From: Balneolaceae bacterium | Lineage (GTDB): Bacteria > Bacteroidota > Rhodothermia > Balneolales > Balneolaceae | Length of the DNA: 53,861 bases | Direction of reading: 5' to 3' | Assembly (NCBI GenBank): GCA_020832285.1 | Contig: JAFIFB010000025.1 | Coordinates: forward strand, 1 to 53,861 | Notes under the pieces: generated by a model | Seen by the model: the letters and a program-made list of their open reading frames with translations, nothing else | What the model was told of the DNA's origin: nothing | Database searches by the model: none | Shown: piece after piece, positions 15,880 to 25,470 of the stretch | How positions within the stretch are numbered: the first letter of the stretch is position 1 | How the letters are laid out: each line of letters opens with the position of its first letter | Program-made: the position numbers and the translations under genes

Positions 15880-18800
15880 TTAACAGCCAAAACCACCACC
15901 TCCCGGAGTAAAAAGAAGAAAGCGATCTCCGGGATTGAGTTCCGCGCCATCCCGCCATTTCATTTTTTGGGTGGTTCCTTTTTTTCTTCGAATTTCCTGT
16001 TTTCCGGTTGCGCCCGGTTCTCCGCCTTTAAGTCCGTAGGGTTTCACGACTCTGTGCTGAGTGAGAACCGACAGGCTCACTGGTTCCAGAAACGTTATTT
16101 CCCTTATGATGCCGTTACCGCCTCGCCAGGTTCCGTTACCGCCTGAGCTTTCTCTGATGGAGTAGCGGTCTAGCCGAACAGGGAAGCGGTGTTCCAGAAT
16201 TTCGGGGTCGGCAGCGCGGGTGTTGGTCATGTGTTGATGTACAGCATCCGCTCCGTGGAAGCCATCACCTGCACCGGTTCCCCCGCCAACGGTTTCATAG
16301 TAGCCGAATGTGTCGTTTCCGAATAGTACATTATTCATCGTACCGTAACTGCACGCGGCCAGCCCGAACGCTTTTAACAGTGTATCAACAAGGCGCTGGC
16401 TGGTTTCGATGTTGCCACCCACCACCGCCGGACACTCAGCCGGATTATCGGGGAAAGGCGGGTTGAGCATTCCATCCGGGATTGTGATTTCAACTGGTTC
16501 CAGCAGTCCGTCATTCAGTGGCAGCGGTTCATTAACCATCAGCCGAAGCACATACATGATCACACTGTTGACGATGGATGGATTCGCGTTCAGATTTCCG
16601 GGATGAACACCCGAACTGCCGGAAAAATCAATACTCATTGAACTCCCCTTTACGCTACAATTTACTCTCAATAACGAGCCATCATCCATCTGTTCTTCGG
16701 CATGGAAAGTGCCATCCGGAATGTTTTCGAGAGTGAGCTTCATTCGTTCTGCTGCATAGAGTTTTAAGCGTTGCATGTATGTCTTTACTTCATCTGCCCC
16801 GAATGTATCAGCGAGTTTTTTCAACTCCGAAACACCACGGTGATTGGCAGCGACGGCTGCACGGATGTCGGCCATATTTTCTTCTATTGAACGGCTGGGC
16901 CATTCGGCTGAGCGAAGCAGGCCTTCTATCTGTTCCCAGCGGAATTTACCCTCTCTGGATAGAAACGCGGGCGGGATCACTACGCCTTCTTCAGCGAGAT
17001 TTGTTGCATCAGGCGGCATAGAGCCGGGGCGTTTCCCTCCGATTTCGGCGTGATGGGCACGACTGGCCACAAACCCGATTCGTTTACCGGCAACAAAAAC
17101 GGGAGTCACCACAGTTACATCGGGGAGGTGAGAACCGCCATAGCCGGGGTGGTTGGTAATGAGAACATCGCCCTCCCGGAAAACCCTCCAAGGGTTCTCA
17201 ACCCTTGGAGGGTTTGACGATGACGATTCAAAATATCGAATCAGCGTCCGCACGCATGTTCCCATCGCGCCGAGATGCACAGGAATATGCGGTGCATTCA
17301 CAACCAGGTATCCGTCTGCATCAAGCAGGGCACAGGAGTAATCGAGCCGTTCCTTGATGTTGACAGATAGGGCGGTTTTCCGGAGCATCTCGCCCATCTG
17401 GTCGGCCACAGAGCGGAACCGGTTGGTGTATAGCTGAAGCTGAATAGCTTCGGGGCGGTCTGTTTTTCCAAAACCTCCAAGGTTTCCTTTCGAAAGGTCT
17501 TTGCTTTTTGTATTTACTTGATTTTCCGTAGAAAAACCTTGGAGGTTTCTTTCTGAATGGCCTGAGTTTGCACTTTTATCCGGATTTTTCGAAGAAAAAC
17601 CCTGGAGGCTACTCAAAATCCAGGTACCATCATCCAAAAGCTGTCCCTCCCAGCCCGGTTCAATCACCGTTGTGCTGTGAGGGTCCAGAATGAGCGCCGG
17701 GCCTGCAATTTCGGCACCCGTTTTCAGCGATTTACGGTGATAGAACGGGCTGGTGTGCGAGGTTTTATTGTGAAGAATCTCTGTTTCTCCGGATGGTGAG
17801 CATTCGATTAGTACGTCACCGTTCACAGGCACAATTTCAATTTCAACATCTTTCTTTTCCGAAGCGATCACCCGAATCGCCTCTACTTCAATCTCACGCT
17901 CTTCTATCCAATGGCCGTAATGGTCTTCGTACACCTGCTGAAACTGTGCAGCTACCTTCTCGACTCCGTTCCAGTCAATTTCGAGCGAGCTATCCTGACC
18001 CTTCAGGCGCAGATAAAGCTGCTTGCGGGAAATCTCAATTTGTCCATTTTTAATCCCCTGTTTTTTCAAATCAGAGGTTGCTTCACCGGAAAGTTCATCA
18101 AACCACACACCCAGCTTCTCCCGAACTTCACGGAATGTCTTCAAAATCTGACGTGATGCGATTTGCTCTGTTTTAGCCTGCTGAAGGCCATACGCGCTTA
18201 GCAGCCCGGCATCAGAAGGAACCAGAACGGTTGATATATTCAGCTTTGCAGCCACCGCGAGGGCATGCTGGGCACCTGCGCCTCCAAATGCCACGAGAGC
18301 ATATTCAGACGGATCAAAACCCTTCTGGATCGAGATTTTCCGAATAGCCTGGGCCATCCGTTCGTTAGCGATATCCAGGAAGCCTTCCAATACGTCCTCT
18401 TTTTGAAGCGGTTGATTTCTGTTCTGGTTGATTATTTTCATCAATTCGTTGAGTGCGTTTCGGGCGGCTTCCATGTTGATGGTGATGTGGAAATTGGAGG
18501 GATGCAGGCGTCCGCTCAGCAGGTTTACATCGGTGATGGTAAGAGGGCCTCCGCGGCCGTAACATGCCGGGCCCGGATCTGCACCTGCACTCTCAGGGCC
18601 TGCGGTCAAGCTTTTTCCATCGTAGGAGCAGATGGAGCCACCCCCGGCTGCAACCGTTTCGATCTCAATGGCGGGAGCCGAAAGGGTGGCATCCCCCACA
18701 GTGTGCTCAAAAATATAATCGATCTCCCCGGCATAGCGCGCCACATCGGTACTGGTGCCGCCCATATCGAAGGAGATGATTTTTTGTAGATTTTCACTGA

Positions 18801-19875
18801 GACCTGTCAGGTTTCCAAAACCTGACAGGTCTCTTGAGGCTGCCCTATTTGCCACGGCCGCCGCACCAATCACCCCGCCGGCCGGCCCGCTGAACAGCCC
18901 GTCTTTCGGTGTGTACCGCTCTGCCTTCACCAAACTTCCCGCACTGCTCATAATACGGAGTGATGAGCTTCCGATTACCTCAGAGATCCGGTCCAGGTAC
19001 TGCTGCATCACCGGGGTAAGGAACGCATCTATATCGGTGGTAACTGCCCGGGGGACGATTTTTATGGCCGGACTCAGTTTCGACGACCGGCTCACAAACG
19101 GCATACCCAGGTTCAGCAGCATCTCTTCAATAAGAATTTCATGATCAGGATTGAGATAGCTGTGCATCAGGCAGATTGCGGCGGCATCAACATCATCCAG
19201 AAGCGGTTCGATCTGATTTCGCAGAGCGGTCAGGTCCGGTTTTTTGAGTCTGTTTCCGTCCGCATCAAGCCGTTCGGGCACTTCGATAATCTTGTGATAA
19301 AATGGTTCAGGTTTTTGGATATTGAGGGAAAACAGATCTGGTCGCTGCTGGTTTTTGATCTTCAGAAGGTCTTTGAAACCTTCCGTGATCAAAAATAGGG
19401 TGCGCCCGCCCCGGCGCTCCAGCAGGGCATTTGTGCCTTTGGTGGTGGAGAGGCGGAATTGAAGAGGCGGGAGCGGGCTGCCTATGGGAGTTTGTGTGAC
19501 CAACCGGGCCGCAAGAACAGGTGCCTCTTCCGGGCTTCGGATTTCGAAAGGGACATTTTGGCCTGAAGGAACGGGAAGTTCATCAGAAAGCGTGAGGATG
19601 GATTCGTTCTCGTCAGAACTGATGATTCTACAGGATCGGTCCGCGTCATTCAGCAGTGAAAAATCATAACCTTTGAAAAAATCATCGGGTGTTTCGTATT
19701 CGAATCGGATGGAAACTTTTCTGGGATTATTTGTGGATCTGGCTGATCCACGAAGGGCACTGCTGCTAAGAACTTTGCGTCGTAGAATGGTTCCATCTGG
19801 GGATGTGGCAATGCAGTCGGTAAAGGTGCCGCCGGTGTCGATACATATATTCCATTTTTTTGAGAGGCTGCTCAT
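15880..19875 (-). CDS. 5-oxoprolinase (ATP-hydrolysing), HyuA-HyuB fusion
   Basis: 1331 residues, the size of single-chain 5-oxoprolinases. HyuA-type N-terminal half: ICIDTGGTFTDC near residue 11, GPAGGVIGAAAVA, then SFDMGGTSTDVA, an actin-like ATPase core. HyuB-type C-terminal half from about 810: DVLITNHPGYGGSHLPDVTV, and a glycine-rich C-terminus (FTPGGGGFGC). The enzyme opens 5-oxo-L-proline to glutamate with ATP; a hydantoinase-like substrate cannot be excluded. Palindromic elements are read in frame: residues about 348-359 before the ATPase motif, about 887-899 at the start of the HyuB half, and a linker (about 755-803) with repeated NLQGFS-type words. The frame stays open throughout. 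The gene stands alone, divergent from the antiporter genes. Confidence 0.92.
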   Translation of the reverse strand: MSSLSKKWNICIDTGGTFTDCIATSPDGTILRRKVLSSSALRGSARSTNNPRKVSIRFEYETPDDFFKGYDFSLLNDADRSCRIISSDENESILTLSDELPVPSGQNVPFEIRSPEEAPVLAARLVTQTPIGSPLPPLQFRLSTTKGTNALLERRGGRTLFLITEGFKDLLKIKNQQRPDLFSLNIQKPEPFYHKIIEVPERLDADGNRLKKPDLTALRNQIEPLLDDVDAAAICLMHSYLNPDHEILIEEMLLNLGMPFVSRSSKLSPAIKIVPRAVTTDIDAFLTPVMQQYLDRISEVIGSSSLRIMSSAGSLVKAERYTPKDGLFSGPAGGVIGAAAVANRAASRDLSGFGNLTGLSENLQKIISFDMGGTSTDVARYAGEIDYIFEHTVGDATLSAPAIEIETVAAGGGSICSYDGKSLTAGPESAGADPGPACYGRGGPLTITDVNLLSGRLHPSNFHITINMEAARNALNELMKIINQNRNQPLQKEDVLEGFLDIANERMAQAIRKISIQKGFDPSEYALVAFGGAGAQHALAVAAKLNISTVLVPSDAGLLSAYGLQQAKTEQIASRQILKTFREVREKLGVWFDELSGEATSDLKKQGIKNGQIEISRKQLYLRLKGQDSSLEIDWNGVEKVAAQFQQVYEDHYGHWIEEREIEVEAIRVIASEKKDVEIEIVPVNGDVLIECSPSGETEILHNKTSHTSPFYHRKSLKTGAEIAGPALILDPHSTTVIEPGWEGQLLDDGTWILSSLQGFSSKNPDKSANSGHSERNLQGFSTENQVNTKSKDLSKGNLGGFGKTDRPEAIQLQLYTNRFRSVADQMGEMLRKTALSVNIKERLDYSCALLDADGYLVVNAPHIPVHLGAMGTCVRTLIRYFESSSSNPPRVENPWRVFREGDVLITNHPGYGGSHLPDVTVVTPVFVAGKRIGFVASRAHHAEIGGKRPGSMPPDATNLAEEGVVIPPAFLSREGKFRWEQIEGLLRSAEWPSRSIEENMADIRAAVAANHRGVSELKKLADTFGADEVKTYMQRLKLYAAERMKLTLENIPDGTFHAEEQMDDGSLLRVNCSVKGSSMSIDFSGSSGVHPGNLNANPSIVNSVIMYVLRLMVNEPLPLNDGLLEPVEITIPDGMLNPPFPDNPAECPAVVGGNIETSQRLVDTLLKAFGLAACSYGTMNNVLFGNDTFGYYETVGGGTGAGDGFHGADAVHQHMTNTRAADPEILEHRFPVRLDRYSIRESSGGNGTWRGGNGIIREITFLEPVSLSVLTQHRVVKPYGLKGGEPGATGKQEIRRKKGTTQKMKWRDGAELNPGDRFLLFTPGGGGFGC
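17181..17215. repeat. 35-bp perfect palindrome inside the oxoprolinase gene (element 1)
   Basis: Two 16-bp arms (17181-17196, aaaccctccaagggtt, and 17200-17215) are perfectly complementary around a 3-nt loop. The element is translated in frame as roughly NPPRVENPWRV, just before the conserved GDVLITNHPGYGG of the HyuB domain. Related single-arm words occur at 17471-17485, 17534-17548 and 17594-17608. Confidence 0.9.
17470..17612. repeat. Cluster of three CCTCCAAGG-type arms in the HyuA-HyuB linker
   Basis: aaacctccaaggttt (17471-17485) and its exact reverse complement (17534-17548) are separated by 48 nt. A third, imperfect copy (aaaccctggaggct) lies at 17594-17607. They encode the repetitive linker words NLGGFG, NLQGFS and SLQGFS. 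The core matches the arms of the 35-bp palindrome at 17181-17215, so the linker appears to be built from the same repeat family. Confidence 0.8.
18799..18833. repeat. 35-bp perfect palindrome inside the oxoprolinase gene (element 2)
   Basis: Arms 18799-18814 (gagacctgtcaggttt) and 18818-18833 are perfect reverse complements around a 3-nt loop, the same 16+3+16 layout as element 1 but a different sequence. It is read as RDLSGFGNLTGLS, between the GPAGGVIGAAAVA motif and SFDMGGTSTDVA, a spot that is normally a short loop in this family. Confidence 0.9.
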
Positions 19876-20396: not shown

Positions 20397-22889
20397 ATGC
20401 ACGAGGCTCATTTCACCCTCCCATTTTCCGACCCGGTACTGGTTTTTGCAACAGTGATGTTGATCATTCTGATTGTGCCGATCATTTTTGCAAGGTTTAA
20501 AGTTCCAAGTATTATTGGCCTTATTTTGGCAGGAGTGATTGTAGGCCCTAATATGATTGGCATACTGGAGAGAGGCGAGACAATGGTTCTGTTGGGCACA
20601 GTGGGATTACTGTATCTGATGTTTATGGCAGGCCTTGAAATAGATGTTAAACGGTTTTTGAAATATAAAAACCACAGTATTGTATTTGGCTCATGGACCT
20701 TTTTTATACCCCAGGTGGGTGGTGCGGTATTGGCGGTATACCTGCTTGGGTTTAGCTGGCCTGCAGCCATTCTTCTTGCCAGTATGTTTGCATCCCACAC
20801 ACTGGTCTCCTATCCCATAGCCAGTAAACTTGGGATTACAAAAAATACGGCTGTAACCACAACAATCGGCGGAACCATCATTACAGATACGGCTGCGCTT
20901 TTGGTACTTGCAGTAATAGTCGCTATGGATGGAGGCGCTGTTGGTGCCGGCTTCTGGATTACACTTGGTATCTCCCTTTCACTGCTTACATTTTTCACAT
21001 TCTGGGCCATACCTAAAATATCCCGATGGTTTTTCCAGACGGTGAGTGAAGAGAGTTATCTGGAGTTTGTTTTTGTGATGGCGGTCGCGTTTTTAGTCTC
21101 ATTTCTTGCAGAATTAGCTGGTGTGGAAGCTATTATTGGGGCGTTTATGGCAGGTTTGGCCGTAAACAGGCTTATACCGGAAAATGGAACCCTCATGAAT
21201 CGAATTCATTTTGTGGGTAGTTCGCTATTTATTCCCTTCTTTTTGATTTCTGTTGGAATGATTGTAGATGTAGGTGCATTTTTTGCGGGATTACAGGCCT
21301 GGATAGTGGCTATTTTTATGATAGTTGTGGCACTTACAGGGAAATATGCTGCTGCCTGGATTACCTCAAAATCATTGAAGTACAACCATAATGAAATGAT
21401 GTCAATGTATGGCCTGAGTGTAGCACAAGCTGCTGCAACGCTTGCGGTAGTTTTGGTAGCCTACGATCGAGGCATTTTTGGAGTATTTGGTGATGCTGTT
21501 TTGAATGGATCTGTACTAATGATTTTAGTGACATGTATCGTTTCTCCAATTATCACTGAAAAGTATGGGAAAAAGCTGGCTCTTGAAGAAGATGAGAAAC
21601 CGTATGATCCTACTGATGCACCACAGAGAATTTTGGTTCCTCTTGCCAATCCTGAAACCTCAGATGCATTGATGGACATTGCTTTTATGGTTCGGGATAA
21701 AAACTCACCAGAACCGCTCTACCCGTTAACGGTTACAAGAGAAAGTGTTGAAACGGATGCTGATGTAGCCAGAGGAGAAAAATTGCTGAGCCACGCTGTT
21801 GTCCACGCGGCTGCGGCTGAGGTTCCCGTAACACCTATGACAAGGATCGACCTGAATATTGCCAGTGGAATAAAAAGGGCAGTTAACGAAAACCGGATAT
21901 CTAATGTGATTATTGGCTGGAATGGCCAGACTTCAGCACGGCAACGAATTTTTGGTTCTATTCTGGATCAGTTACTGGCCGAAATTGATGAAATGGTGAT
22001 GGTTTGCAAGATTGAAAAACCGGTAAATACATTTAACAGAATTGTTGTTGCCGTTCCTCCATTTTCTGCACTTGAGGTTGGTTTTGCCGGGGCTATCAGG
22101 CCATTGAAACTGATGGCACAGCAGCTGGGTGCAGATTTTGAAGTCGTTGTTACAGAAGAGAGGCTTCCGGTTGTTGAGAAGAGGATTAATAAAATAAAAC
22201 CGGAAATAGATGTTCGTTACTCAAGCCTGGATCAATGGCTGTCTCTGCCACTCTGGATGAATGATCATGTTGATGATAATGATCTCTTTATCCTGATAAG
22301 TGCCCACGAGGGATCCATTTCCTGGCGGCCCGGACTGGACAGATTACCACGTGTAATTGCTCAGAAGTTTAACGATTTAAGCTTTATTACGGTTTATCCA
22401 TCTGAGGTAGAGGTTGATTCATCTATTCTTAACAGTTCCACACCAACGGAAAGCAGCTTCCTGTCTGCCGATTATATCAAAATTGAACTTCAGCAGAAAC
22501 CAATTCAGGGTATATTGGAAGACATGCTAAGTATTGATCGTACAAATGATAAAAAGAGAGTATCTGAATTGGTTGACCGATTGATGCAAAATTCAGAAAG
22601 TTATACACCGGAAGTGATGCCGGGAGTGCTTCTGTTTGAGGCCCGTACTTCAAAAACAGAGGAGCAAAAACTATATGTGGGCATAAGCAGAGAGGGCTTG
22701 AATATGGAGAGAACTGCAAATCAGTGCCATGTAATTTTGGCATTTGTGAGCCCACTCACTGTTGATAAACAAGAGCATTTAAAATATCTGAATGCCATTG
22801 TAAAGATGATCAAGTCAGGTGATTCCTATGCTAAAATACTTGAATCTTCAACAGCACTTGGAGCCTTGAAAGCCTTAAAGGCAAGGTAG
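20397..22889 (+). CDS. CPA2-type cation:proton antiporter with Usp-like C-terminal region, copy 1
   Basis: 830 residues. Residues about 12-395 contain some twelve hydrophobic segments of a Na+/H+ exchanger domain, with GLILAGVIVGPNMIG, LLGTVGLLYLMFMAGLEID and the ion-path segment IITDTAALLVLA. The cytoplasmic C-terminal half starts at APQRILVPLANPETSDALMD and resembles tandem universal-stress-protein (UspA-like) folds rather than the KTN domain of Kef systems. Predicted role: inner-membrane exchange of Na+ or K+ for protons, with the Usp-like part sensing nucleotides or stress. It is followed after 79 bp by a same-strand paralogue, consistent with one operon and possibly hetero-oligomers. Cation specificity cannot be read from sequence. 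Confidence 0.9.
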   Translation: MHEAHFTLPFSDPVLVFATVMLIILIVPIIFARFKVPSIIGLILAGVIVGPNMIGILERGETMVLLGTVGLLYLMFMAGLEIDVKRFLKYKNHSIVFGSWTFFIPQVGGAVLAVYLLGFSWPAAILLASMFASHTLVSYPIASKLGITKNTAVTTTIGGTIITDTAALLVLAVIVAMDGGAVGAGFWITLGISLSLLTFFTFWAIPKISRWFFQTVSEESYLEFVFVMAVAFLVSFLAELAGVEAIIGAFMAGLAVNRLIPENGTLMNRIHFVGSSLFIPFFLISVGMIVDVGAFFAGLQAWIVAIFMIVVALTGKYAAAWITSKSLKYNHNEMMSMYGLSVAQAAATLAVVLVAYDRGIFGVFGDAVLNGSVLMILVTCIVSPIITEKYGKKLALEEDEKPYDPTDAPQRILVPLANPETSDALMDIAFMVRDKNSPEPLYPLTVTRESVETDADVARGEKLLSHAVVHAAAAEVPVTPMTRIDLNIASGIKRAVNENRISNVIIGWNGQTSARQRIFGSILDQLLAEIDEMVMVCKIEKPVNTFNRIVVAVPPFSALEVGFAGAIRPLKLMAQQLGADFEVVVTEERLPVVEKRINKIKPEIDVRYSSLDQWLSLPLWMNDHVDDNDLFILISAHEGSISWRPGLDRLPRVIAQKFNDLSFITVYPSEVEVDSSILNSSTPTESSFLSADYIKIELQQKPIQGILEDMLSIDRTNDKKRVSELVDRLMQNSESYTPEVMPGVLLFEARTSKTEEQKLYVGISREGLNMERTANQCHVILAFVSPLTVDKQEHLKYLNAIVKMIKSGDSYAKILESSTALGALKALKAR

Positions 22890-22968: not shown

Positions 22969-25470
22969 TTGTTTTTTGATTCACCACCATATCAATACCC
23001 GTTTATAGATCCGGTTCTCATTTTTGCCTTTGTGATGTTCTTGTTGGCGTTGGTGCCTATTATAGCAGATTGGTTGAAAGCTCCCCGTATCGTGTTCTAT
23101 ATCATTGGAGGGGCTATTGCAGGGCCTCATGTGCTGAACTTTCTTCATAGAGATCAGACAATGGTACTTTTAGGTACTGTCGGTTTGATCTATCTGATAT
23201 TTTTGGCAGGGCTCCAGCTCGATCTTAATAAATTCATCAAATATAAATATCAAAGCCTCTCTTTTGGTTTATTGACGTTTCTGCTTCCATTTGGAATTGG
23301 TGTAGGATTAGGACTTTGGCTGGGTTATTCACTATTTACGGCACTACTAATGGCCAGTTTGTTTGCCTCTCACACTTTGGTAGCCTATCCGATTATCTCA
23401 AGGCTGGGAATTACCAAAAATATGGCAATGACTACATCCGTGGGGGGGATTATCGTGACAGACCCCGGAGCATTATTGGTTCTTGCTATTGTAGTTGGCG
23501 CCCACAGCGGGGATATCAGTGCTGCATTCTGGCTGATGCTTACCGTATCAGTAGCTGCATACCTTGCAATTATTTACTTCATTATTCCGGTGGTTGGGCA
23601 GTGGTTCTTCAGAAATTCAAAAAGCGGGGGTGCCGTTGAATACGGGTTTGTACTCGCCATACTGTTTTTGTGTGCCTACCTCGCGATGGTTGCCGGCCTC
23701 GAAGCAATTATAGGAGCATTTCTTGCAGGCCTGGCGCTCAATCGGCTCATACCGGAAAAGTCTGTATTGATGAACAGGACCAAATTCATCGGTGAAGCTC
23801 TCTTTATTCCGTTTTTTCTTTTAAGCGTTGGTATGCTGGTAGATATCTCGGCATTTTTTACGGATGTCAGAACCTGGGTTGTGGCAGTTACAATGATTAT
23901 AGCCGTTGTGCTTGGAAAGGGTGGAGCAGCATATCTTTCACAATACATATTTAAATTTTCAAAATCAGAGAGCTGGACTATTTTCGGGCTTACTGTTCCC
24001 CAGGCAGCAGCTACACTCGCGGTTACACTCATTGCCTATGATATCGGGTTATTTGATGATTATATCCTGAACGGAACCATTATGATGATTCTGGTTACCT
24101 GCCTGATAGGGCCGTATGTGGTAGAGAAGTATGGTAAGGAAGTCGCCCTTGCTGAAGATCGTGAACCATATGATCCTTCTGAAGCTCCTCAGCGAATATT
24201 GGTTCCACTTGCAAATCCTGAGACATCCGATGCTCTTATGGATATTTCATTTATGGTTCGTGATACTGGCTCGGAAGAGCCGGTGTATCCGCTAACAGTA
24301 GCGCGTGATGGGGCAGGGGTAGAAAGTCAGGTTGCGCGGGGTGAGAAAATGCTAAGTCATGCGGTTATTCATGCAGCATCAGCGGAAACACCGGTAGTAC
24401 CAGTTACACGTATTGATTTTAATGTATCAAAAGGAATAACAAGAGCTGTCAATGAACTGCGGATTTCAAGTGTGGTTATTGGATGGAATGGAGAAATATC
24501 AACAAAACAGAAGATTTTTGGCAGTATTCTCGATCGCCTTTTGGAAGAGATTGATGAGATGGTGATGGTTTGTAAAATTGAAGATCCGGTCAATACCTTT
24601 GAGCGCATGGTGGTAGCTATACCTCCACTGGCAGCTCTTGAGGCAGGATTTGCGGATGCCATCAGATCACTGAAGCTGATGGCTGAACAGCTTGGTGGCG
24701 ACATGGTAGTTGTCTCAACAGATGAACGAGAGCAATATGTGCGTAGCCGGATAATTAAAGTAAAACCTGAAGTTCCTTTAGAGTTCAGTACTATTCATTC
24801 CTGGATTGAGTTGCCGGGATGGATCGAAAAAAACAAAAAAGAGAATGATCTGTTTGTGATGATAAGCGCTCGTGAGGGGACACTTTCTTGGAGGCCGGGG
24901 CTCGACAGATTTCCACGAGTACTTTCTCAGCGTTACCCAAAACTAAGTTTTATAACCGTTTACCCATCAGAAGCTGAAGTGGAAATCGATCCAAAGCTGG
25001 GTGATACTGCTCTTACGCTGCTTCAGGAGAAGAGAGTTCGTCTTCACCTTGAAGATGGGTTATCTAAAGAAGTACTTGAACAGATTTTGCGGACTGATGA
25101 AGAACTAAGCGAAGATAAAGTGGACAGCATTGTCAGGCGCCTTGTTGAAAGTTCAGCAGATTATAAACCAGAGGTAATGCCCGGTGTCCTTCTCTTCGAA
25201 TCTCACACTTCGAAAGTTACCCGCCAAAAGTTTTTCATTGGTATTAGCAAGGATGGTGTGAATGTGGAGCAGAGTGCCCATCTGGTTCATATTGTGATGA
25301 TATTGGTCAGTCCGAAGGATTTGAGTGTAGACGACCATCTGCGTGGGCTAAATTCGGTTGTCAGACTGATAAGGCCGGGTAAAATTTTCGAAAAAATCAA
25401 AAATGCTGAGAGTGCATCAGAAGTAATTGGTACATTGAAATCAATCAGACAGCAGAATGGCCTGACATAA
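22969..25470 (+). CDS. CPA2-type cation:proton antiporter with Usp-like C-terminal region, copy 2
   Basis: 833 residues, closely similar to the preceding gene over its whole length: YPFIDPVLIFAFVM against LPFSDPVLVFATVM, VTDPGALLVLA against ITDTAALLVLA, and an almost identical APQRILVPLANPETSDALMD junction. The start is TTG at 22969: a stop codon sits two codons upstream, no ATG lies nearby, and starting there keeps the N-terminus colinear with copy 1. Predicted to be a second inner-membrane cation/proton exchanger in the same operon. The tandem arrangement indicates an old duplication, because the two have diverged in many positions. Confidence 0.9.
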   Translation: MFFDSPPYQYPFIDPVLIFAFVMFLLALVPIIADWLKAPRIVFYIIGGAIAGPHVLNFLHRDQTMVLLGTVGLIYLIFLAGLQLDLNKFIKYKYQSLSFGLLTFLLPFGIGVGLGLWLGYSLFTALLMASLFASHTLVAYPIISRLGITKNMAMTTSVGGIIVTDPGALLVLAIVVGAHSGDISAAFWLMLTVSVAAYLAIIYFIIPVVGQWFFRNSKSGGAVEYGFVLAILFLCAYLAMVAGLEAIIGAFLAGLALNRLIPEKSVLMNRTKFIGEALFIPFFLLSVGMLVDISAFFTDVRTWVVAVTMIIAVVLGKGGAAYLSQYIFKFSKSESWTIFGLTVPQAAATLAVTLIAYDIGLFDDYILNGTIMMILVTCLIGPYVVEKYGKEVALAEDREPYDPSEAPQRILVPLANPETSDALMDISFMVRDTGSEEPVYPLTVARDGAGVESQVARGEKMLSHAVIHAASAETPVVPVTRIDFNVSKGITRAVNELRISSVVIGWNGEISTKQKIFGSILDRLLEEIDEMVMVCKIEDPVNTFERMVVAIPPLAALEAGFADAIRSLKLMAEQLGGDMVVVSTDEREQYVRSRIIKVKPEVPLEFSTIHSWIELPGWIEKNKKENDLFVMISAREGTLSWRPGLDRFPRVLSQRYPKLSFITVYPSEAEVEIDPKLGDTALTLLQEKRVRLHLEDGLSKEVLEQILRTDEELSEDKVDSIVRRLVESSADYKPEVMPGVLLFESHTSKVTRQKFFIGISKDGVNVEQSAHLVHIVMILVSPKDLSVDDHLRGLNSVVRLIRPGKIFEKIKNAESASEVIGTLKSIRQQNGLT

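Follow-up and report, generated by a model that had tools for sequence, protein, structure and literature searches.

How does a perfect palindrome come to lie, in frame, inside the coding sequence of an enzyme? The question is raised by a contig of a Balneolaceae bacterium (JAFIFB010000025.1; its whole 53,861 bases are called the window here), in which a 1331-residue fusion of the hydantoinase/oxoprolinase halves HyuA and HyuB is encoded on the minus strand at positions 15880..19875. The original prediction, made from the letters alone, had pointed out a palindrome in this gene and likened it to a mobile insertion. Our analysis favors, with a probability of about 0.8, the reading of the palindrome as a REPIN-like element of 33 bp, i.e., a pair of inverted repetitive extragenic palindrome (REP) units, that is non-autonomous and depends for its movement on a REP-associated tyrosine transposase (RAYT, or TnpA-REP, of the HUH/Y1 family). 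The palindrome family is widespread, and it was probably spread by a transposase of this REP type.

Three in-frame palindromes in the HyuA-HyuB gene

The focal palindrome has 16-nt arms at 18799-18814 and 18818-18833 that are 100% complementary across a 3-nt loop, exactly as predicted, and is translated as RDLSGFGNLTGLS between the conserved motifs GPAGGVIG and SFDMGGTSTDV, the in-frame position that had also been proposed for it. The description as a 35-bp palindrome holds with regard to perfect pairing over 35 bp; the unit proper, however, is 33 bp long (18800..18832, without strand of its own, read in frame on the minus strand), and the gene contains two further palindromes. The focal unit, designated the GTC type, consists of the halves AGACCTGTCAGGTTT (18800-18814) and AAACCTGACAGGTCT (18818-18832) separated by the spacer CCA. 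A second strandless 33-bp element, of the CCCTCCAAGGG type, lies in frame on the minus strand at 17182..17214, immediately ahead of EGDVLITNHP, and its perfect arms extend to a 35-bp palindrome at 17181-17215. The third element (17471..17548, likewise in frame and strandless) occupies the linker between the HyuA and HyuB halves, and has perfect 15-nt arms at 17471-17485 and 17534-17548 with 48 nt between them.

The window contains no more than five perfect hairpins whose arms are at least 9 nt and whose loops are at most 10 nt long, and the two longest, with 16-bp arms, are those at 18799-18833 and 17181-17215. The focal 33-mer folds as single-stranded DNA with -15.9 kcal/mol, corresponding to z = -7.9 against 200 shuffled sequences. 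The scarcity of perfect hairpins and the strength of this fold together argue that the palindrome is not a chance occurrence. No Rfam family matches it at the gathering threshold.

A protein search of 58 genomes of the family gave a match in 20, including the genome under study. The GPAGG-SFDMGGTS interval (site 1) is about 16 residues shorter in distant orthologues, so that the segment is missing from them, which the original prediction had named as one sign of an insertion; the added length exceeds the roughly 12 residues estimated originally. In the solved structure of N-methylhydantoinase (7hk5) there are 16 gap positions at site 1, and 13 residues are missing at the site of the second element (site 2). 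Close relatives (loci, genomes and contigs are numbered with the prefixes L, G and C) carry other palindromes at the same places: at site 1, CCAACCCTCCAAGGGTT in L154, AGACCTCCGGGGTTT with a 51-nt loop in L150 and a single 15-nt unit in L152; at the linker, AGACCTGTCGGGTTTT in L150 and AACCCTCCAAGGGTT in L154; and at site 2, AACCCTCCAAGGGGT in L154 and AACCCTCCAAG in L152. Seemingly decayed copies were recognized by eye in L149 (site 1) and L151 (site 2), and site 1 is empty in L151. Since different palindromes stand at the same sites in close relatives, the three sites are permissive places that are re-occupied or re-written in each lineage. The absence of the segment from distant orthologues and the kindred palindromes elsewhere in the genome support a repeat-encoded, in-frame insertion of the mobile type.

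Architecture of the repeat unit

The 33-bp unit opens with a dinucleotide A-N, after which come a mini-palindrome of 11 nt, in most cases TT, then a spacer of 3 nt and finally the inverse of what precedes the spacer. It can thus be read as two inverted 15-nt hairpin units, each made up of A-N, a 4-nt stem, a 3-nt loop, a 4-nt stem and usually TT. Each 15-nt half folds only weakly by itself (4-bp stem, 3-nt loop, about -1.7 kcal/mol), whereas the two halves paired together account for the full -15.9 kcal/mol given above. Pairing was surveyed in 323 elements from all fetched loci, a set enriched for ACCT..AGGT since many loci had been fetched by that pattern. The pair adjoining the stem is complementary in 310 of the 323, compared with 165 expected if the two sides were independent, and the outermost pair is A-T in 310/323. 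The next pair outward is matched in only 60/323, and because pairing drops so sharply beyond the outermost A-T pair, the unit is taken to be 33 bp.

Among 92 focal-version copies (from the window and 80 of at least 117 matching stretches), 84 have arms that close with one more complementary dinucleotide, most often AG..CT, and this terminal pair changes jointly on both sides, to AA..TT in 87, AC..GT in 9 and AT..AT in 8 of the 323 elements. Where spacers of 1-6 nt were allowed, 120 of 133 focal-version copies had 3 nt, 12 had 4 nt and one had 2 nt. Outside the A-N foot the bases are unconserved, and of a foot only A[G/A] remains; neither a GTAG nor a CGTC foot is found, and the element is therefore not a GTAG or CGTC REP. 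The full 4-pair mini-palindrome within an arm is present in 40 of 77 hairpins beside or inside RAYT genes vs 2 of 24 other hairpins of the genome under study.

Thirty-three base pairs equal 11 codons. The frame read as DLSGFxNLTGL is nearly always open and that read as RPVRFxKPDRS often so, the third containing TGA; copies that arrive in permissive loops can therefore survive as in-frame peptides. The in-frame copies illustrate how mobile DNA can introduce additional peptide segments into working enzymes.

Distribution across genomes and phyla

A search of the genome itself, allowing at most three mismatches to a degenerate pattern, returned the focal place and six others, seven distinct places in all, vs none for the reversed pattern. 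Five of the six non-focal places lie outside any open reading frame (ORF) of at least 120 residues and the sixth (C66) at the very start of one; a GAC-type relative on C10 has a 37-nt spacer. Further copies surround, and lie inside, one of the RAYT genes of this genome. A second, GC-rich palindrome family (CGGGCAAGCTGCCCG and CGGACAGGCTGCCCG types) was also noted in the genome, with two copies 137 bp apart at L018:2347-2521.

Of 394 genomes searched across the phylum, 54 contain exact matches to the pattern ACCTNNNAGGTTTNNNAAACCTNNNAGGT, and none of those listed contains it reversed; the arm triplets vary among these genomes yet remain complementary. Four of ten genomes of the window's genus contain the pattern (5, 5, 7 and 19 copies) and six do not, and at up to two mismatches one relative reaches 30 copies. 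A scan for the focal version with spacers of 1-6 nt gave at least 117 stretches. The matches listed include, within Bacteroidota, Winogradskyella, Aquimarina, Algoriphagus, Belliella, Rhodohalobacter and Gracilimonas among others, and, outside it, Thermoflexus, Anaerolineales and Aquidulcis (Chloroflexota), Marithrix, Thioploca and Methylomonas (Gammaproteobacteria) and one Ignavibacteria record. The non-Bacteroidota records are often metagenome bins, some with long contigs (2.4 Mb for Anaerolineales, 308 kb for Marithrix). A 33-mer of this type matched nothing in plasmids or phages, and 65 matching stretches were found in viral contigs.

Coding context was judged by ORFs, not gene calls. By this measure the focal type is mostly extragenic, 108 of 133 copies, the window's included, lying outside ORFs of at least 150 residues. 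Of the 25 inside such ORFs, 21 are read in the DLSGFxNLTGL phase and four in the RPVRFxKPDRS phase. Thirteen copies are bordered on each side by 40 or more residues, and a Pfam match spans the element in seven of ten proteins tested (L066, L032, L104, L036, L060, L260 and L268; not in L118, L101 and L054). In one Flavobacteriaceae-like genus, where 20 copies in seven genomes were considered, a single copy (L396) falls in an ORF of at least 150 residues, near its start.

A mostly extragenic element with a strong fold would also be expected if the hairpins were convergent, non-mobile structures retained for a function in RNA or DNA, such as a terminator, an mRNA stabilizer or a protein-binding site, and a Flavobacterium locus has, by eye, other hairpin-like sequences after a stop codon; with 26 specified bases common to several phyla, in-frame copies within enzymes and RAYT genes flanked by matching families, this explanation is very improbable.

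Two array-like arrangements were noted. Clusters spaced at 350-390 bp in L224/L225, considered as integron-like arrays, proved to be repeats of the flanks, and a tandem array in G226 (L222:16716-19028) has a hairpin, AAAAACCCG...CGGGTTTTT, every ~380 bp.

Association with RAYT genes

A tblastn search identified RAYT-like genes in seven named loci, and palindromes or single arms lie near every one of them; such genes match the NCBIfam profile REP_Tyr_transpos with E values of 2.8e-10 to 4e-18. The best structural match of an AlphaFold model of the L031 protein is the RAYT-REP complex 4er8 (E 1.7e-5, TM 0.54-0.59). In L239 palindromes flank a broken RAYT-like gene (L239:1540-2472) on either side and another lies within it in frame; a 98-residue ORF of GIY-YIG-like appearance by eye splits this gene between its N- and C-terminal parts.

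The association was quantified with a hairpin test that is not family-specific, counting any hairpin with 12-bp arms, at most one mismatch and a loop of 1-5 nt within 250 bp. It was applied to 50 RAYT loci of the phylum, 30 returned by a search for RAYT genes (L271-L300) and 20 picked from the list of that search (L301-L320), some of them for genomes holding or lacking palindromes; RAYT loci found via a palindrome (L031, L035, L039, L041, L048, L097, L144 and L239) were kept out. Hairpins lie on either side at 34 of the 50 loci, on both sides at 21 and inside the gene at eight, one of the latter (L286) being of another design than the 33-bp unit. The corresponding figures are 4/20, 0/20 and 0/20 for IS200 TnpA loci, and 9/500, 0/500 and 14/500 for random places in the genome under study.

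The comparison with IS200 loci bears on whether the mobilizer could be an IS200/IS605-type Y1 transposase, or some unseen element, rather than a RAYT. The Y1_Tnp domain is indeed found in 47 of 54 palindrome-bearing genomes vs 223 of 340 others (p 0.0014), and no RAYT was found in 25 of the 54. However, ACCYnnnRGGT sites are absent within 1.5 kb from all 20 IS200 TnpA loci (one locus being shorter), which led us to reject the IS200-type enzyme as the engine, hairpins on both sides are absent from these loci, and G022 and G202, with 21 and 13 copies, have RAYT matches without any Y1_Tnp match. This alternative is thus improbable. A longer autonomous element carrying the palindromes as terminal repeats was considered as well, and the fetched DNA gave no clear case of one.

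The palindrome families go with RAYT clades, as seen in a quick tree of 74 rows (50 + 8 + 16). The CCTAACAGG family stands at the clade-matched RAYTs of L280, L282 and L314, the CCCGACAGG family at those of L277 and L279, and the CCTGCAAGG family at L272 to L274, L275 of the same clade being without any. In the genome under study, the RAYT gene on contig C115 (L302) has copies of the CCCTCCAAGGG family, i.e., the one at 17181-17215 of the window, both at its sides and within it, and in G207 CCCTCCAAGGG occurs both around the RAYT (L299) and in the oxoprolinase. The spacing between RAYT residues is 25 in L039, which has no copy, vs 36 in L299, which has one, and fits an addition of 11 residues, within a spacing that spans 16 to 45 among genes without a copy. 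Five palindromes of the GATTTGACAACTTTT type, ~87 bp apart, were noted directly after a RAYT of G363 (L319:2186-2559).

Outside Bacteroidota, 22 palindrome-bearing genomes were reached via loci of Chloroflexota and Gammaproteobacteria and one of Ignavibacteria. A match to the RAYT alignment was obtained in 20 of them at E ≤ 1e-5, 14 at 2.4e-20 or better. Of 30 RAYT loci (L436-L465), nine weak ones were excluded; hairpins lie beside the gene at 18 of the remaining 21, on both sides at 12 and inside at four. Arms of the GTC type adjoin the RAYTs of L436 (Thermoflexus) and L438 (Aquidulcis), and the mirrored GAC type is present at L436, L437 (Thioploca), L439 and L440 (Marithrix) and L442 (Methylomonas). 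Ten of these RAYTs cluster in the quick tree with three Bacteroidota rows (SH-aLRT 95), which is consistent with joint transfer of the RAYT gene and its palindrome. The RAYTs of L437 and L441 are 93.9% identical over 165 columns, yet have GAC vs ACT flanks; the protein is therefore unlikely to read the triplet. The two genes also differ at a homologous internal position, where a 33-bp dimer in L437 stands against one 15-nt unit in L441, so that their lengths there differ by a net 24 nt. Such cases provide natural controls, the free triplets hinting at what is not read, and the monomer/dimer pair permitting comparison at one site.

At six loci a RAYT is joined in one frame with oxygen-dependent coproporphyrinogen oxidase (HemF), with a palindrome or its remains as linker (L048:5712-7187, L097:2125-3609, L041:1275-2744, L144:3502-5028, L271:1420-3066 and L276:499-2013). 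A HemF profile confirms four of the six (L048, L144, L271 and L276), L041 and L097 being assigned by eye, and most of the fused genes also have palindromes beside them. HemF normally has its own start methionine, which seems to have been replaced in the fusions. They are candidate cases of a RAYT domesticated within a core pathway.

Proposed mechanism and its alternatives

In the mechanism that we propose, the RAYT would take the folded element from single-stranded DNA by recognizing its 15-nt hairpin units, cut at the terminal N|T step, selected through complementarity with the A-N dinucleotide of the opposite end, and the excised piece would then be joined elsewhere. The three places in the HyuA-HyuB gene would accordingly have been filled repeatedly, in related species, by different versions. 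We infer from sequence comparison that guide and cut site may be built into one stem, the main evidence being the joint change from AG..CT to AA..TT, AC..GT or AT..AT. This step is put forward with caution because plain selection for pairing would equally yield complementary terminal pairs. If correct, it would make the element a candidate RAYT substrate of only 33 nt, whose complementary terminal pairs predict the cut site. A more far-reaching version is tentative, and we consider it somewhat more likely to fail than to hold: a minimal self-guided REPIN, whose first two bases guide a cut between its last two and whose 5- and 11-codon forms keep the frame, would have crossed phyla with its RAYT, seeded loops with 11-residue peptides and brought the RAYT into a lasting fusion with HemF in Flavobacteriaceae, with apparent loss of the HemF start methionine.

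Several observations weigh against the assignment to a RAYT passenger. All twelve RAYT-like matches remain under the curated NCBIfam cut-off of 80 bits, the L031 model has a mean pLDDT of 69, and the RAYT alignment found nothing in the PDB by sequence at E 0.01. No adjoining hairpin is present at 16 of the 50 RAYT loci, including two of the three RAYTs of the genome under study, and no cognate RAYT for the focal GTC type was found in that genome. Sibling palindromes do occur at other places there, but they carry other arm triplets, and the exact GTC-type focal palindrome is single-copy, which the original prediction, taken literally, would count in part against itself. With scoring confined to the eight top candidates of each genome, a RAYT at E ≤ 1e-10 was present in only 29 of the 54 palindrome-bearing genomes vs 119 of 340 others (p 0.010); G262, with 19 exact copies, is among the remaining 25, and a candidate decayed RAYT in its locus L266 was not borne out. 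In G021 the RAYT flank is of the GCA/ACA type and the four dispersed copies listed are of the AAC type. The extra segment in the oxoprolinase, at about 16 residues, is some five codons longer than the 33-bp unit accounts for. Lastly, no nucleotide-exact empty site was obtained from the three kinds of material searched: 28 sequences aligned at a Flavobacterium intergenic place had diverged too far, a kinase loop was hypervariable with several kinds of insert, and searches with joined flanks gave no clean case. The kinase loop, which follows NNAFDAMREK in many paralogous GAF/HATPase kinases (L466-L495; e.g., L466, L473, L476 and L488), is itself of note for the diversity of its inserts, which comprise RAYT-type palindromes, decayed palindromes and short peptides in tandem, QGSGDKE repeats among them.

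The alternative that survives best is old insertion followed by drift in place, in which each site was hit once in an ancestor of the clade and the palindromes, while remaining perfect, later altered their sequence through template-switch (quasi-palindrome) correction or gene conversion rather than by new insertions. It would account for several relatives that share the three sites and differ in arm sequences, for two paralogous kinases of G262 that hold different versions at the same place, and for the dimer and monomer at one homologous site of two RAYTs. However, versions at the sites match families dispersed elsewhere, as with CCCTCCAAGGG in G207, and RAYT flanking and cross-phylum spread are left unexplained, so that drift in place is possible but unlikely as the overall explanation. 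Spread as a REPIN-like passenger of RAYTs therefore remains the preferred reading.

Elsewhere in the window, two similar long ORFs in tandem, at 20397-22889 (830 residues) and 22969-25470 (833 residues), have by eye the look of paralogous cation/proton antiporters.

Comparison with known systems

The 33-bp family shares with miniature inverted-repeat transposable elements (MITEs) a non-autonomous nature, an inverted repeat and the lack of coding capacity. MITEs are 70-300 bp long with terminal inverted repeats of 15-30 bp (PMC3733652), whereas the present unit is nearly all stem and its pairing ends at the ends of the unit. The likeness to Rickettsia palindromic elements suggested in the original prediction holds for behavior, since these too are palindromes in frame within protein genes; by description, RPE-4 and RPE-6 are CGTC repeats (PMC3733652), whereas neither a CGTC nor a GTAG foot is conserved in the 33-bp family, and the REP/REPIN sequences of RAYTs are closer.

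REPs inside ORFs, including one gene place filled in two species, are described by Di Nocera et al. 2013 (PMC3733652). Quentin et al. 2018 (PMC6006769) describe, for TnpA-REP subclass 2.6, Bacteroidetes RAYTs with flanking 'atypical secondary structures' and copies elsewhere, and, for subclass 2.4, in-frame REP insertions within tnpA-REP. REPs and in-frame REPs are thus already published, and, given the published Bacteroidetes RAYT flanks, the kind of element is known. The 33-bp sequence is not displayed in the part of a 2025 REP survey that was available (PMC12306157), and in the open-access literature (i.e., outside subscription papers and preprints) we found no description of this sequence, of the untagged two-level 33-bp design, of the RAYT-HemF fusion or of three repeatedly occupied sites in one enzyme. 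Set side by side by description, not sequence, the 33-bp family may correspond to the 'atypical' structures of subclass 2.6: the Bacteroidota RAYTs, the untypical flanking hairpins and the copies elsewhere agree, whereas the motifs seen here (NH[FLY]H, LF..F, YIH.NP) fit no single row of the published table cleanly (PMC6006769).

The closest relatives are REPs and REPINs with their RAYTs (REPtrons). The dissemination of REPs is termed poorly understood in PMC8266576, according to which RAYTs cleave single-stranded REPs at C|T; the same work proposes, with supporting mutations, that the choice of cut is guided by complementarity to bases in the GTAG foot, for instance AG. In common with these systems, the 33-bp family has short palindromes, inverted pairs of hairpin units, a flanked RAYT, copies mostly outside ORFs, and complementary foot and cut dinucleotides such as AG and CT. 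It differs from them in that it has no conserved GTAG or CGTC foot, in that 33 bp suffice for both units and the spacer, and in that its exact sequence is common to several phyla.

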